DNA of 50,601 nucleotides from a virus. This document shows positions 8,458-50,601 of the stretch, piece by piece (position 1 is the stretch's first letter; each line of letters opens with the position of its first letter). The stretch is taken from the IMG/VR virus record IMGVR_UViG_3300008267_006046, positions 1 to 50,601 of that record, one strand, 5' to 3'. Both the position numbers and the translations under genes were made by a program. Under the pieces are notes generated by a model. It was given only the letters and a program-made list of their open reading frames with translations. It was not told the DNA's origin and did no database searches.

Positions 8458-8676
8458 TTACATCCTGTAAGTTATTCTGCCCTTGGTAAGATCGTATGGG
8501 CTCATTTCAATTTTAACTGCGTCGCCTAGGATTACTTTAATTTTATTCTGTTTGAGTCTACCGCCCATATAACATAGTACAATTTGTTCCATATTATCTA
8601 CTTTGACTCTGAATGTAGAGTTGGGCAATACCTCTTCTATCTTGCCTGTGAGTTCTAATAGTGCGTCTTTAGCCAT
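8458..8676 (-). CDS. infA: Translation initiation factor IF-1
   Basis: A 72-residue single OB-fold protein, the same length as bacterial IF-1. The match runs end to end: MAKDALLELTGKIEEVLPN, FRVKVDN, GDAVKIEMSPYDLTKGRI. The SPYDLTKGRI block corresponds to the TPYDLSKGRI of bacterial IF-1. IF-1 binds the 30S A site and works with IF-2 and IF-3 in choosing the start codon. The start overlaps the AbrB-like gene by 8 bases. A phage copy could tune host ribosomes; several genes here appear to be leaderless, which makes this relevant. Confidence 0.95.
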   Translation of the reverse strand: MAKDALLELTGKIEEVLPNSTFRVKVDNMEQIVLCYMGGRLKQNKIKVILGDAVKIEMSPYDLTKGRITYRM

Positions 8677-8842
8677 GTTTAGTAATAGTAATTGCCCCGT
8701 CTTCTAACTTAATTGTGAGGGTGTCTCCCTCTTTCCAACCGTTTCTTTCTAAAATTTCTGGAGGAATTTTCATCATAACATTATCTGGATCCCCGGGAAT
8801 GTCTTCAAAAATATCTTCGGCGTTATAGGTAAATGTTTCCAT
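8669..8842 (-). CDS. AbrB/SpoVT-like small protein
   Basis: The minus strand from ATG 8842 (AGGA site) encodes 57 residues. After an acidic start (METFTYNAEDIFEDIPGD) comes VMMKIPPEILERNGWKEGDTL and then TIKLEDGAITITKH. This is the swapped-hairpin AbrB pattern of antitoxins and transition regulators (I-P-x-E-x-L...GW-x-x-GD-x-L). It is probably a DNA-binding regulator. No toxin gene is obvious beside it. The stop lies inside the IF-1 start region. Confidence 0.75.
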   Translation of the reverse strand: METFTYNAEDIFEDIPGDPDNVMMKIPPEILERNGWKEGDTLTIKLEDGAITITKHG

Positions 8843-9398: not shown

Positions 9399-9427
9399 AT
9401 TATAGTATATTTTTTTGAGCAAGTCAA
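9399..9427 (-). promoter_or_regulatory. Sigma-70-like early promoter, predicted leaderless start
   Basis: Minus strand: -35 TTGACT (9422-9427), exact 17-bp spacer, -10 TATAAT (9399-9404). Six bases separate the -10 from the ATG at 9392, so a standard start site would be the A of that ATG. The TTGACTTGC start matches that of the promoter at 22440-22468. Confidence 0.8.
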
Positions 9428-45440: not shown

Positions 45441-46030
45441 TATATTCTAAATACATACACGTACCTAACTGGCAGCAACATCAAAAAGATCTTATTGATT
45501 TTTATTATAGTGCTGGTAAGTATAGTCCTGACATGTGGTGGTGGTGCCATTTTGATGACGAAGTAAAATTACACATGCCTAATCTTATCAAAGATTTTGC
45601 CAGTGTTGGATTGCAGATGCATCAACTAATTTATTTTACAACACCACCAAAAGATATCACAGTTACTGATCACGAAGATCCATTGTCTATCTTTATCCAT
45701 CAAGATGCGCAGGACAATCCAGATTACTACACTGATTTAGATACACAATTTAATCCAACTTTTGCTGTTAATATTCCATTGGAAAACTGCGAAGGTAGTA
45801 CAACATTCTTTTACCAAAGAACAGACGATGAACCCGAAGTATATTACCCGTGGCACGGCTGTGGCGGATTAAAACATAGTTCGGTTAAAGAAGTGCATAG
45901 ATTTGAGTTGAACCAACCTGCACTATTAAGAATAAATGTGCCGCATGGAGTATTCAACCCACATGCAGCACATCGTACTGTCGCTACTTTTAGATTCTAT
46001 AACAATATAGATTTTCTAATTAAGGATTAA
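45437..46030 (+). CDS. Oxygenase-like (beta-helix) protein
   Basis: 197 residues. LSIFIHQDAQDNP (H88, D90), FAVNIPLENCEGSTTFFYQRT, LRINVPHGVFNPHAAHRTVATFRF (H170, R180). The H-x-D...H...R order supports a 2OG-oxygenase fold; it is unlike the tandem copies. Last gene of the plus cassette, ending tail to tail with the tail-fibre gene (11-base overlap). Confidence 0.65.
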   Translation: MIYSKYIHVPNWQQHQKDLIDFYYSAGKYSPDMWWWCHFDDEVKLHMPNLIKDFASVGLQMHQLIYFTTPPKDITVTDHEDPLSIFIHQDAQDNPDYYTDLDTQFNPTFAVNIPLENCEGSTTFFYQRTDDEPEVYYPWHGCGGLKHSSVKEVHRFELNQPALLRINVPHGVFNPHAAHRTVATFRFYNNIDFLIKD

Positions 46031-47450
46031 GTCCAAACAACGGTAGTGCAAACTCTTTAGTTGTTCCAAATACAACCGCGCCAGCACTGGCATGATTTAC
46101 ACTCATAGTTACCTGTGTAGGACTATCTACAGATAATATCTCTGCTGCTACACCAAAAGCGCCTGTGCCGCTTTGAATTGTAAATACCTGACCTGCAAAT
46201 AAACCCTGTGTACTTCCATATGTAAGTGTTACTACAGCAGTACCTGTAGCTAGAGTTGCTCCTAGATTACTAGTATTCAACACTACTTTGAGGTAGGTAA
46301 TAGCGCCTGTTCCTGTGTCAACTTCGCCTGCACCGGCACCAGCTTCAACTGTGTTGTTAGTAACTGTGACTTCACCGTTAGTACCAATGCTTAACGCAAC
46401 AGTGAATTCGTCAAGTCTGTCAGTTCCTGTGTAAAGATTGAATCTTCCAGGAATAGATTCTAAACCTGGAGGACCATCTACTGTAACAGTTGTATAAACA
46501 GCGGCTCCATAATTTACTGTGCCAAGTGCATCATAAGAAGTTGTCCAAACTACATCACCGGTCTGTATTGCAGTTGGTAATGCCATTGTTCCTCTTGCTC
46601 TGGAAAAACCCATTCCGGCGCCAAGGTCTGTATCACCCCAAGATGAAATAGTAAACAAATCATAATCGTCGTCTAACGAACCTTCAGTGTGGATACTTAT
46701 ACCACCTAGTGTAGTTGGCGGAATATAAATTCCGTCTAGTTCAGCAGTTCCTGTTATGACAATGTTTCCGGTACCAGTTATATTATTACTGTTTAAATCT
46801 AATCCGCCACCTAGTGTAGGAGCAACATCGTCTTCAAGCGTTGTTGTTACTGTAGCAGGCATCCAACGTAATGCAGCATTATTCCAACTCAATAATTGAC
46901 CGTCTAATGGCGGTACTGATGTTACATCAGTGTCTGTAAGATCAGCTAGACCACCTATGGCGAAATTGATATCACCTGTAATATCTTGAGTAATTGTGAT
47001 ACCTTCTTGGGTGCCACTGGTTAGTGCTATAAAAATTTGATCTTGCAAATACACCGTATCTATACTTACATCAAGTGCATCGTCAGCATCTCTATAATTA
47101 AAATCTATTCCATTATGAGCGCCACTAGTAATCATTAATGCTGTTACGTCTCGAACTGTTTCAGCATCAATTCCACCAGTAACTACAGCAGTGAGGGTAC
47201 CTAACGTATCATTGTAAGTGAAAGTTATTCCTGTATGTGTAGCAGTTGTAAACAGGCTGGCAGCAGCATCTTGTGCTTCGTCGTCGGTGTAGCTTCCGCC
47301 ACCACCTCCACCTGCTATGACTGTTCCGCCTACAGTTGTTCCGTCACCCACATAAAGGTTCTTTGTATCTGTAGTATAAATTATTTCACCCTGTAAAGGT
47401 GTTATTGTTAATCTTTGGGCATTTGTGCCCCTACGTAGTTGCAATGGCAT
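46020..47450 (-). CDS. Tail fibre/tail-tip-like structural protein
   Basis: 476 residues. The N-terminus LQLRRGTNAQRLTITPLQGE, followed by IIYTTDTKNLYVGDGTT, is the virion-binding N-terminal block of Mtd-like and many marine phage fibre proteins. After a GGGGGG hinge (about 48-53) come repeated beta-strand blocks (SLFTTATHTGITFTYND, LMITSGAHNGIDFNYRD, IALTSGTQEGITITQD), about 50 residues each, then a long beta-rich region. Gly/Thr/Ala-rich composition and no catalytic motif fit a fibre. Late boxes and a GGAG site lie upstream. Probably the receptor-binding or decorated surface protein. Confidence 0.8.
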   Translation of the reverse strand: MPLQLRRGTNAQRLTITPLQGEIIYTTDTKNLYVGDGTTVGGTVIAGGGGGGSYTDDEAQDAAASLFTTATHTGITFTYNDTLGTLTAVVTGGIDAETVRDVTALMITSGAHNGIDFNYRDADDALDVSIDTVYLQDQIFIALTSGTQEGITITQDITGDINFAIGGLADLTDTDVTSVPPLDGQLLSWNNAALRWMPATVTTTLEDDVAPTLGGGLDLNSNNITGTGNIVITGTAELDGIYIPPTTLGGISIHTEGSLDDDYDLFTISSWGDTDLGAGMGFSRARGTMALPTAIQTGDVVWTTSYDALGTVNYGAAVYTTVTVDGPPGLESIPGRFNLYTGTDRLDEFTVALSIGTNGEVTVTNNTVEAGAGAGEVDTGTGAITYLKVVLNTSNLGATLATGTAVVTLTYGSTQGLFAGQVFTIQSGTGAFGVAAEILSVDSPTQVTMSVNHASAGAVVFGTTKEFALPLFGLNP

Positions 47451-47481
47451 GTAATAACTCCTGGTATTACCTAGTTATGAG

Positions 47482-47489
47482 TATTTATT
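47482..47489 (-). promoter_or_regulatory. Late-type promoter box for the fibre gene
   Basis: Minus strand AATAAATA (one mismatch to TATAAATA), 31 bases before ATG 47450, with a GGAG ribosome site in the leader. Confidence 0.55.
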
Positions 47490-47521
47490 CTTTTTTTGGA
47501 TTAAGAGTTCGATCTCATTAG

Positions 47522-47529
47522 TATTTATT
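47522..47529 (-). promoter_or_regulatory. Second late-type box upstream of the fibre gene
   Basis: A second AATAAATA 40 bases upstream, followed by CTAATGAG where the first box has CTCATAAC. It suggests tandem late promoters just beyond the terminator of the early operon. Confidence 0.4.
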
Positions 47530-47535
47530 ACAGCC

Positions 47536-47562
47536 AAAAAAATAGGGCCCGTAGGCCCTATT
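47536..47562 (-). terminator. Intrinsic terminator (UACG-loop hairpin)
   Basis: The minus strand forms AATAGGGCC-TACG-GGCCCTATT followed by a run of T (47536-47542). The loop is a C(UACG)G tetraloop. It closes the operon 49708-47578. An almost identical copy is at 49747-49772. Confidence 0.9.
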
Positions 47563-47577
47563 AAGTACGCAGATAAC

Positions 47578-48039
47578 CTATGTATACCAGACTTCTTTGA
47601 AGCCTTCTTCTACTGTAGGATCTTCCCAACTGGCAATCATGCTGGCAATAACATGATCTGGAATCTCTTTGCCTGGACGGTTAAGCAGCCTACTCATAAG
47701 TTCTTTATGCTCGGGTGTCTTAAATACCACAGCAATATGCTCATAGTCTGGCAACATATTAAACTTACGAGCGCGACTTTTAACAGTAGTACTGGTCTGA
47801 TCCCAGATAATATCTCGCCCTGCTTCACGTGCCACAACTACTTCTTTGGCCATGAGTTCTACAGCCGTGGGCATAAAATCTGTAAACACTTCTGAATAGG
47901 TTTTACCCACTTCTTTAGCATAGATTTCAACCCACTTATCAGTACTAATGTGAGCACACAAGTGAGCCCAGTCTTGAGCTTCTGCCCAAGTACTTTTTCC
48001 ACTAGCAGGAACTCCTATAAGTTGATAACATTTTGGCAT
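47578..48039 (-). CDS. P-loop (polynucleotide-kinase-like) kinase
   Basis: 153 residues. Walker A GVPASGKSTW (9-18, K15), ISTDKW, then IIWDQTSTTVKSRARKF and a final IASWEDP. The layout is that of the AAA_33/T4 PseT kinase half, without the phosphatase domain. It may phosphorylate nucleic acid 5' ends or a small molecule. Last gene of its operon, directly before the terminator. Confidence 0.8.
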   Translation of the reverse strand: MPKCYQLIGVPASGKSTWAEAQDWAHLCAHISTDKWVEIYAKEVGKTYSEVFTDFMPTAVELMAKEVVVAREAGRDIIWDQTSTTVKSRARKFNMLPDYEHIAVVFKTPEHKELMSRLLNRPGKEIPDHVIASMIASWEDPTVEEGFKEVWYT

Positions 48040-48134
48040 TATATTTTCCTATTCAAAATAAAACCTTTAGAATAGATAAAGAATGCCTTACCGGTCCTAA
48101 TCATTTGTTTAAAATAATATTCACGATAAGACAT
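48039..48134 (-). CDS. 31-residue basic peptide
   Basis: The minus strand from ATG 48134 encodes MSYREYYFKQMIRTGKAFFI and about eleven more residues, ending in TAA at 48039-48041. An AAGGAAAA site precedes it, and its stop overlaps the next start as TAATG. It fills the only unexplained gap in this operon. Basic and aromatic, with no known family. Confidence 0.55.
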   Translation of the reverse strand: MSYREYYFKQMIRTGKAFFIYSKGFILNRKI

Positions 48135-48142
48135 TCTTTTCC

Positions 48143-48745
48143 TTACATTGTAGGACCGTTGCCGTTCCTAAAGCCTACTGATCCACCTTCTGCTTCGATA
48201 CGTGCGATAACGTCTTCAAATAAGATAGGTGCAAAGTCAGTTTGCTCTACGCAAACGCAATGATAACGAACATCGTTTTCATCGCTGTACAAGATCTCTC
48301 CTGTACGTGCATCAACACCACGAGCCTTCTTTACGCGGTTAGCGTGAGTGTGTCCGTGAATGTTGACACCAAACCGTCCCATTGAGTCACTGTGCAAAGG
48401 AATATGGCTTAAGATCATTCCGTTCATAACATGATATGCCCGTAATTCTCTAAAGTACTGCCTGTACTCGTCATCCCTAAAGATGTCATGGTTACCGCGG
48501 ATTAACACCTTGTCGCCGTTTAAACGGGCCAACGTAGGTAATGCTCTACGATTAATAACAACATCACCTAAATGGTAGACCTTGTCAGTGGGCTTGACTC
48601 GTTCGTTCCAAGCCTTGATCATAGCTTCGTCCATTTCTTCGGGACTGTCCCATGGACGTAACTTTGTAACACCATCGTTACGTGTGAAGCGGCAAACACC
48701 CATATGTCCAAAGTGCGTGTCGCTGACTAAAAATACACTAGGCAT
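48143..48745 (-). CDS. Metallophosphoesterase
   Basis: Start at ATG 48745 with an AAGGAG site (200 residues); the longer frame is a shadow. VSDTHFGH (D9, H11), YHLGDVVIN, IRGNHD, LSHIP and NIHGHTHAN are the calcineurin-like motifs in order, all present. It is smaller than the 5386-6231 enzyme. It follows the phosphatase gene by a TAATG junction. Confidence 0.88.
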   Translation of the reverse strand: MPSVFLVSDTHFGHMGVCRFTRNDGVTKLRPWDSPEEMDEAMIKAWNERVKPTDKVYHLGDVVINRRALPTLARLNGDKVLIRGNHDIFRDDEYRQYFRELRAYHVMNGMILSHIPLHSDSMGRFGVNIHGHTHANRVKKARGVDARTGEILYSDENDVRYHCVCVEQTDFAPILFEDVIARIEAEGGSVGFRNGNGPTM

Positions 48746-49278
48746 TATATATCTCCTTCTCTTACTGGCGGGATAAACAATCCTGTTTCTGTCTTTTCCC
48801 AAACTTGCTTATTGTTTAATTCATCGTAGCTGTACGGAACCCCATTCATAGTATGCGGTTCATTCTCGTCGTAAGTCCAACCAAGGACTTTCATCATTTT
48901 ATGCTTGACCATTAAATTAGGGCTACGAAAAACTTCGCAGTCATCAAAGCCCATCATAACGCCAACTTCGCAGACTGCGCCACTGCGGCACACGCCTGCA
49001 ACACAATGAACAACGACATTCATTCGTTTGTCCATGGCATGTTGCAATAGCTTGACTAGCTGTTCAGCCTGTGCATCAGTGACTTTGAATTCCTCCCCAA
49101 ACGCATCACCTACCTCAAGATCCAGAAACTCAAACTGGTGAGTCTCTTTGAACTTGTGCATGGGCTTTGGGAACTCCATGGATGGGTCAACAATTTGAAT
49201 CAGCATACTGTTCTCACCAGCACGATGGTGACGACCTTTGGGAATATCACCCAAACTTACATTTTCAATCCACGGCAT
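48745..49278 (-). CDS. Protein tyrosine/dual-specificity phosphatase-like protein
   Basis: 177 residues with the C-x5-R active-site loop HCVAGVCRSG (C92, R98), preceded by NVVV and a helix AEQLVKLLQHAM. The acidic residue of the general-acid loop is probably within DLEVGDAFG (about 53-61). A short, active-looking phosphatase, perhaps aimed at host phosphoproteins or nucleotides. Ninth base after the next gene upstream. Confidence 0.85.
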   Translation of the reverse strand: MPWIENVSLGDIPKGRHHRAGENSMLIQIVDPSMEFPKPMHKFKETHQFEFLDLEVGDAFGEEFKVTDAQAEQLVKLLQHAMDKRMNVVVHCVAGVCRSGAVCEVGVMMGFDDCEVFRSPNLMVKHKMMKVLGWTYDENEPHTMNGVPYSYDELNNKQVWEKTETGLFIPPVREGDI

Positions 49279-49286
49279 AATGCCTC

Positions 49287-49481
49287 CTAAATTTCTGCGT
49301 CGATGTGTCGACCTTTGTCTAAATCTAACCGAATATTTCGTGCTACTCGGTCTGCTACAATTTGATCAAAGTTACGTTTTTCAACAACCTTACGATAGTC
49401 TTCTTCTCGCTTACGTTGAAGATTAACCTGTTCTAAATTGTACTGTCTTATTTGATCTTGCTGTATTCTTGAAATATCCAT
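49287..49481 (-). CDS. Small coiled-coil-like protein
   Basis: 64 residues, strongly charged: IQQDQIRQYNLEQVNLQRKREEDYRKVVEKR suggests one long helix. Its start overlaps the previous stop by 1 base. No known family. Confidence 0.65.
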   Translation of the reverse strand: MDISRIQQDQIRQYNLEQVNLQRKREEDYRKVVEKRNFDQIVADRVARNIRLDLDKGRHIDAEI

Positions 49482-49708
49482 TATGTCCGCTCCTTTTTAA
49501 CTCTGCCAATACGGTTAGCCTTGTTCCAATCGTAGGCAACCCCATCTGGGCACTTGCCATCTTTAATTGAGTCTACACCAAATCGTCCAACAAGTTCCAT
49601 ACCATTAACTTTAATAGTAACGAACTCTCCTAATTCTTTTGCCCACGCCATTGCTAGGGCTAATGTTTCAAACTCACGCGAGTTTGTATTGCTTTTTACT
49701 TCTATCAT
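49481..49708 (-). CDS. Small conserved protein, first gene of the operon, predicted leaderless
   Basis: 75 residues (MIEVKSNTNSREFETLALAM...), with an alpha-helix, a VTIKVNGMELVGRFGVDS beta-hairpin and a basic end. The ATG at 49708 comes 6 bases after a TATAAT -10, so the transcript should begin at the start codon; there is no ribosome site. The promoter contains a palindrome that could be an operator. Whether this product is its own regulator cannot be told. Confidence 0.7.
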   Translation of the reverse strand: MIEVKSNTNSREFETLALAMAWAKELGEFVTIKVNGMELVGRFGVDSIKDGKCPDGVAYDWNKANRIGRVKKERT

Positions 49709-49714
49709 TTTATT

Positions 49715-49743
49715 ATTATAGCATCACCTTTTGGTGATGTCAA
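49715..49743 (-). promoter_or_regulatory. Sigma-70-like promoter with palindromic operator in the spacer
   Basis: Minus strand: -35 TTGACA (49738-49743), 17-bp spacer, -10 TATAAT (49715-49720). Positions 49722-49739 are a perfect inverted repeat, CATCACC-4 bases-GGTGATG, filling the spacer and touching the -35. This is the place a repressor dimer would bind; a cruciform or RNA role is less likely because it lies upstream of the start site. Confidence 0.8.
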
Positions 49744-49746
49744 CTT

Positions 49747-49772
49747 AAAAAAATAGGGCCCGTAGGCCCTAT
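49747..49772 (-). terminator. Intrinsic terminator (UACG-loop hairpin), second copy
   Basis: Minus strand ATAGGGCC-TACG-GGCCCTAT then a T run (49747-49753). It ends transcription of the vWA gene just upstream of the next promoter. Loop and stem are the same as at 47536-47562. Confidence 0.9.
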
Positions 49773-49800
49773 CCAAACTATGTTGTATTTTTACAACAGT

Positions 49801-50601
49801 TTACAACTTGTAACGATCGCTCATTACAGTCTTAAGCATGATGCCTTCTGGAGTGAACTGATCCAAATCAGCGGCTAGCAAGCTAGTCATGATTGATGGA
49901 CTAAATCCACTTACCAATGCGGCACCACTCTTGTCTGCCTTAACAGGTACGTTGTCTGAACTGTTTAGGTTCCAGAAAACAATCTGTGGCACAGAGTAGC
50001 CTGCGGCTTCGAACTTACGTTCGATCATTTCCATTGCGCTGTCGTCGTAACGGGCGCATTGGTTGAACTGCATGTCTGACAAGATCAGTAACATGCCTGG
50101 CATGTCACTTTGTGGTACTGAGTTCTTAACCGCAACGTCTAGAATCTTCTTCATAGCCGCATGTAGGTTAGTACTCATATCCCAGTTGCTACTAGACATT
50201 TGAGTCACCTTGTCAACAATGTTACCCTTAAGAGTAACAAGTTCTGGCTTGTCTGAGAAAGTCAAGAATGTGTCCTTGAACACGCCCTTGTTCTTGTCTG
50301 CTAGGTACAAGCCCAAGCTGATACTAACATCCATGCAAGTTACATTAGTGTTCTTTCCTGCTGGGCAAGACATAGAACCACTAACGTCTACGATTGGCAT
50401 GATGCTTGCATCGCCAACGTAGTTTGGCAAGCTGTCCCATTGTGCAATTACATGGTCAGTTTCTGTCTTGTCAAACTTTGCACGGTAGCTACCAATCACT
50501 CCCTTCAACACATCATGTGGAAAGATTGCAGAGGCGTTAACCTTAACAGTCTTATCACCACTTACCAACTTGGCAACATACTCAGCAAACGCTGGGCTGT
50601 G
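49801..50601 (-). CDS. vWA/TROVE-like (Ro-type) protein, N-terminus outside window
   Basis: The frame is open to the right edge, so the N-terminus is missing; the TTG within the window is not the true start. The visible 266 residues run AFAEYVAKLVSGDKTVKVNA, then IFPHDV, then a von Willebrand A domain with the MIDAS motif PIVDVSGSMS, a DxLxxxSD-like FLTFSDKP, and ILSDMQFNQC. The C-terminal GAALVSGFSPSIMTSLL resembles the end of TROVE/DUF2828-type proteins. Those bind RNA ends or Y-RNA-like molecules. Ends 29 bases before a terminator. Confidence 0.75.
   Translation of the reverse strand, partial: HSPAFAEYVAKLVSGDKTVKVNASAIFPHDVLKGVIGSYRAKFDKTETDHVIAQWDSLPNYVGDASIMPIVDVSGSMSCPAGKNTNVTCMDVSISLGLYLADKNKGVFKDTFLTFSDKPELVTLKGNIVDKVTQMSSSNWDMSTNLHAAMKKILDVAVKNSVPQSDMPGMLLILSDMQFNQCARYDDSAMEMIERKFEAAGYSVPQIVFWNLNSSDNVPVKADKSGAALVSGFSPSIMTSLLAADLDQFTPEGIMLKTVMSDRYKL

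Follow-up and report, generated by a model that had tools for sequence, protein, structure and literature searches.

A conserved box in the spacer of a phage operon promoter, mirrored into a perfect palindrome in one phage

Operators of the lambda PRM/OR and tetO type lie in or over a promoter, where their dyad overlaps the contacts of RNA polymerase. In promoters of the MerR type, the dyad is centred between the −35 and −10 sequences, and the spacers are 19–20 bp long. In the telomere phages PY54 and N15, cI is controlled through OR3, and the Cro repressor binds a mapped 16-bp site (PMC4488713). The promoter analysed in this study, which precedes an operon of an uncultivated phage, resembles each of these systems in part. 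Its dyad lies over polymerase contacts as in lambda PRM/OR and tetO, and occlusion would be a natural mechanism; unlike those systems, the window (the whole stretch of DNA analysed, a complete virus record of 50,601 bases) has neither repeated operators nor an identified repressor gene. As in MerR-type promoters, the dyad is centred between −35 and −10, but the spacer is 17 bp rather than 19–20 bp, the hexamers match the consensus, and no activation by DNA distortion is needed. With PY54/N15 OR3 it shares a palindromic operator-like element at a phage promoter and probably also a leaderless mRNA from a highly active promoter; the difference is that Cro and a mapped site are described there, whereas here the site is a candidate and its palindrome is not conserved (PMC4488713). 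The promoter belongs to an already known kind, and the finding is a modest one.

The window contains a single 12/12 match to the sigma-70 promoter, TTGACA-N17-TATAAT, on the minus strand at 49743–49715. Read on that strand, the sequence is TTGACA-TCACCAAAAGGTGATGC-TATAAT, followed by AATAAA and the ATG of a gene for a 75-aa protein (Table 1). The 17-bp distance between its hexamers falls within the 16–18 bp of sigma-70-type promoters, and the promoter is conserved in relatives; judged by its hexamers, it should be strong with the host RNA polymerase. The sequence-only reading had described a perfect palindrome, CATCACC-N4-GGTGATG, in the spacer and overlapping the −35, and this was confirmed at 49722–49739, with an overlap of 2 bp and a dyad over the polymerase contacts, which is an operator-type position. 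Its claim that the other sigma-70-like promoters lack such a palindrome also held for the three other TTGAC-N18-TATAAT promoters of the window, whose inverted-repeat arms never exceed 4 bp. Its label of an early promoter found no support in the analysis.

Table 1. Positions of promoter elements and neighbouring genes in the window.
Feature	Position	Strand	Basis
−35 hexamer TTGACA	49738–49743	−	
17-bp spacer	49721–49737	−	
−10 hexamer TATAAT, preceded by an extended −10 TG	49715–49720	−	
Perfect palindrome CATCACC-AAAA-GGTGATG, filling the spacer, 2-bp overlap with −35	49722–49739	−	
ACCAAAA, window copy of the conserved spacer box	49729–49735	−	Orthologous promoter cores
Inferred transcription start, A of ATG, 6 nt past TATAAT	49708	−	Spacing
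Intrinsic terminator of the upstream vWA gene, T-run ending shortly before −35	49751–49774 plus tail	−	
75-aa gene, first of the operon, weak phrog_10800 match (E 0.0048)	49481–49708	−	
64-aa gene, no family match	49287–49481	−	
Dual-specificity-phosphatase-like gene, PF00782 (E 2e-7, under the curated cut-off)	48745–49278	−	
Calcineurin-like metallophosphoesterase gene, PF00149	48143–48745	−	
AAA_33 kinase gene, PF13671; polynucleotide kinase is the third-best PHROG match	47578–48039	−	
DUF7788/vWA gene preceding the promoter, matches PHROG 850 (RNA-binding protein)	49801–50568	−	

The vWA protein matched 667 phage records; among the 20 listed, three were annotated as RNA-binding protein and one as Ro sixty-related, and most were hypothetical. 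The vWA/phosphatase/kinase operon looks like one for RNA repair. INPHARED phages contained neither near-identical DNA for 46001–50601 nor a relative of the 75-aa protein, and Rfam and tRNA scans of the window gave no matches. Directly after the vWA gene lies a hairpin, GTTGTA-AAAA-TACAAC (49781–49798); the window has one copy of the pattern GTTGTA[AG]AAATACAAC, and each of five relatives counted has one to three. At L017, L018, L023 and L036, and as a variant at L027, the Ro60-related vWA gene is directly followed by a conserved, apparently structured non-coding sequence (CTGCTGGCCCACCTTAGCC...). Rfam scans of two of these, L017 and L027, found only tRNAs; a Y-RNA-like partner is a candidate. 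Three of six 20-kb stretches of relatives scanned (L179, L200 and L174) had 28–35 tRNA or tmRNA genes each, with a tmRNA called in two of them, and the other three had 0–2.

An ATG placed 6 nt after TATAAT was found in 40 of 275 promoters, compared with 0–10 promoters at each of the other distances shorter than 15 nt. Half of these ATGs (20 of 40) open a frame of at least 40 codons. Promoters with this spacing thus form a genuine class in these phages. In the window it is seen twice, at 49708 and at the promoter at 9399–9427. Because the ATG of the 75-aa gene stands 6 nt after TATAAT, its mRNA is probably leaderless, a start deduced from the spacing. If so, transcription would begin at the A of AUG with no 5′ untranslated region, there would be no leader on which RNA-based control could act, and control would have to act on the DNA. 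A link of spacer dyads to leaderless genes was rejected (arms of at least 6 bp in 7/51 versus 30/307, p = 0.45).

To obtain relatives, the vWA protein was searched twice in IMG/VR, and the best 80 of 270 and the best 80 of 290 matches were taken, some contigs being in both; the set comprised 159 loci, or 160 with the window. Of the 160, 106 have a TTGAC-N18-TAYAAT promoter in the 190 nt that follow the vWA gene, and 54 lack one, some perhaps because the sequence ends too soon. The 106 loci reduce to 40 distinct promoter cores, 20 with a separate terminator, as in the window, and 20 others. Twelve of these others were labelled by script as fused, the −35 (TTGACAGGG, TTGACTGGG, TTGACGGGG) being the 3′ arm of the terminator hairpin. 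The terminator T-run of fused cores lies inside the 17-bp spacer. Such a fused terminator/promoter stands after the vWA gene at L010, L024, L029, L035, L048 and L054, and before a homologue of the 75-aa gene at L089, L151 and L159, which are known from the downstream gene alone.

The 20 separate-terminator cores, which share descent and are not independent, have CAAA at a fixed spacer position in 20/20, CCAAA in 18/20 and a box-closing T in 19/20, while the three spacer positions before the box vary freely (0.20–0.84 bits). When the complete intergenic region was aligned for 10 sequences, ACCAAA was invariant. None of the 20 other cores behind the vWA gene contains CCAAA. In nine of the 20 separate-terminator cores, the box has a mirrored half, TTTGG, after it, which forms the dyad CCAAA-N-TTTGG, tighter than that of the window; eight of the nine have ACCAAA-W-TTTGGT. 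The GGTGATG mirror, in another register, is confined to the window; present in 1/20 cores, this dyad lacks the conservation across orthologous promoters that would mark an operator. Ten of the 20 have neither dyad; L341 and L342 keep a partial mirror. The nearest relatives of the same layout by vWA identity (L004–L009 and L015; 93–95%, among the best 80 of 270) carry the box without the palindrome and belong to these ten. Since the box is kept in orthologues while its mirror differs or is absent, it is the box that is conserved. These results indicate that the conserved part of the spacer is a box, (A/G)CCAAAAT, and not the palindrome, and that the mirror is optional and shifts its register. 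The proposal that the palindrome is an operator candidate was therefore supported in part: a conserved, junction-specific sequence lies in the spacer, as expected of an operator, but the palindrome is not that sequence. Pairing of the box with a TTTGG before the terminator was ruled out, as that TTTGG is not conserved.

No copy of the palindrome with up to two mismatches was found elsewhere in the 50.6-kb record, which is possibly a fragment. In IMG/VR, the palindrome with its −35 occurs in only two contigs, apparently of the same phage, and in both the promoter region and the vWA and 75-aa proteins are identical to those of the window. Further copies of the site, to which the sequence-only reading had looked for support, thus failed to appear in the record, or in IMG/VR beyond these two contigs, and one shared operator was rejected because the palindrome is not repeated. 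A promoter with ACCAAANTTTGGT in its spacer was found in 29 contigs; in 26 it follows the vWA gene and is itself followed by first genes of at least three kinds, and in three it precedes a metallophosphoesterase gene, a second promoter position. These data bear on whether the palindrome serves as operator for an autoregulator encoded in the operon (the 75-aa protein) or for an AbrB/MazE-like protein encoded at 8669–8842 (PF04014, E 5e-8), as had also been suggested. Position and symmetry would suit such an operator, and the AbrB/MazE-like gene lies about 41 kb from the promoter in the same window; against this, there is no second copy of the site in the record, and family and PHROG searches returned no DNA-binding family match for the 75-aa protein. 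That relatives have this spacer element ahead of other first genes speaks against autoregulation by the 75-aa protein, and no link was found between the AbrB/MazE-like protein and the element. We regard this explanation as very improbable. The AbrB/MazE-like gene adjoins a gene for a homologue of translation initiation factor IF-1 (8458–8676, PF01176, E 9e-20).

In 3.18 Mb (290 sequences, overlapping loci counted), ACCAAANTTTGGT occurred only in promoter spacers, in 12 distinct contexts, and three control words gave 0, 3 and 1; 27 of the ACCAAANTTTGGT loci had entered the set through a search with this pattern, which favoured the spacer-only result. The shorter word CCAAANTTTGG occurred in 20 distinct contexts at any place, which counts against reading the box as a regulator site. 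CCAAA/TTTGG was the top 5-mer in the spacers of three relatives of 345–356 kb (29/132 versus 11.0; after removal of duplicates, 13/95 versus 4–6 for control words), and this excess could be a wider spacer preference. The case for CCAAA/TTTGG as a half site throughout the group is not made, because the over-representation was not replicated in 71 further promoters of the group (6/71, not above the 1–8 of control words), and it is not confined to spacers. A host regulon was also rejected: in genome_contigs, one bacterial stretch (Scatolibacter rhodanostii) matches the promoter whose spacer holds ACCAAANTTTGGT. A literature search of titles and abstract openings found no paper on the spacer element. 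In G020, G022, G025, G029, G030 and G031, many promoters have nearly the whole spacer in common, so that the spacer motifs are position-locked and group-specific; examples are TTGACAATAAATGGGTTTGGGTATATAAT, with four occurrences in G029, and the cores of G020 that resemble TTGACCAATAATGCCCGATTTGCTATAAT.

Perfect inverted repeats whose arms are 7 bp and whose loops are 0–8 number 79 in the window (overlapping registers counted), so that such repeats are common in general in this AT-rich sequence. The palindrome pattern with three mismatches allowed gave two matches in the window, one being the palindrome itself, where 1.3 were expected. The phage and its relatives (1.96 Mb) supplied 165 non-redundant TTGACN-N17-TAYAAT promoters, of which seven had arms of at least 7 bp (loops 0–10). 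Re-pairing left and right halves between promoters gave a mean of 1.24, and none of 500 re-pairings reached seven. From this null, chance would produce such arms in about 0.75% of promoters, or about 3% over the four strict promoters of the window. The palindrome is unusual for a promoter. As a second control, a 29-nt frame was slid along 164 promoters. At the offsets nearest the promoter, −5 and +5, there were 8 and 7 inverted repeats, and at 24 non-overlapping offsets (35–145 nt on either side) there were 0 to 8, with a mean of 2.6. Two of these 24, −35 and +55, equalled the spacer, which counts against the regulator-site reading of the box. It is therefore apparent that the excess extends around the promoter and the upstream terminator, with a peak in and near the promoter, and is not confined to the spacer.

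The palindrome may be a functionless by-product, in which the box and the group's usual GATG before the −10 came to mirror each other by chance; template-switch repair may then have made a quasi-palindrome perfect. Its restriction to the window phage, the orthologues with another dyad or none, and the abundance of inverted repeats just upstream of these promoters all agree with this origin, as does the finding that GATG of the right arm is made up of the base most frequent in each of these four columns of the spacer. The low chance per promoter and the presence of a mirrored half around the same box in two registers argue against it. On balance, a by-product is quite possible.

An inverted repeat in this position could also act as an RNA hairpin in read-through transcripts, serving as a weak second terminator or as a processing or stability element. 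In some sets of orthologous promoters, paired changes preserve a stem in the spacer although its sequence differs, for example ACACCGCC-TTCG-GGCGGTGT versus ACACCTCC-TCCG-GGAGGTGT (the promoters around L200:6956, L179:17708 and L174:16835, and L167:16326 and L228), and G.T outnumbers A.C among stems with one mismatch (12 versus 6; null 8.9 and 9.0). The G.T excess is weak, a complete and strong terminator (49751–49774) already stands just upstream in the window, and the palindrome is followed by CTATAATAATAAAA. No T-run directly follows it on either strand, and it was not listed by the terminator scan. An RNA hairpin is therefore an improbable explanation.

There is probably a control site here, though a different one from that which the palindrome implies. 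We favour, with a probability of only about 0.4, a strong leaderless-type operon promoter whose conserved spacer box is a regulator site, mirrored privately in the window. In this proposal, the host-sigma-70-type promoter would start an operon of the 75-aa, 64-aa, dual-specificity-phosphatase-like, metallophosphoesterase and kinase genes. The box (A/G)CCAAAAT, lying roughly between −27 and −20, would most likely be the contact site of a DNA-binding regulator, which, placed between the two polymerase contacts, would keep the host RNA polymerase off. Some relatives carry the box mirrored as ACCAAA-W-TTTGGT, and the window phage would have acquired a private mirror half in another register, giving CATCACC-N4-GGTGATG. 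In favour of this reading are the conservation of the box, the absence of CCAAA from the other cores and its unraised frequency in the 71 further promoters, the spacer-only places and second promoter position of ACCAAANTTTGGT, and the excess of inverted repeats in spacers; the ten cores with neither dyad and the lack of a second site in the record speak against it. As the distance between half sites differs between the window and its relatives and the mirror is often lost, one rigid dimeric repressor is a poor fit. The box could instead serve promoter strength or DNA shape, the palindrome being accidental, and we consider this nearly as likely as a regulator site. A further extension, in which an operator of an RNA-repair-like operon of large phages has gained, lost and regained its mirrored half in different registers, changing alongside a diverging regulator, seems unlikely.

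Should the box prove to be a regulator site, it would offer a handle on how uncultivated phages time the vWA/phosphatase/kinase operon. The locus also advises caution, since the portion of a control site that is conserved least can be a perfect promoter palindrome. Comparison across relatives singles out the bases to mutate first.
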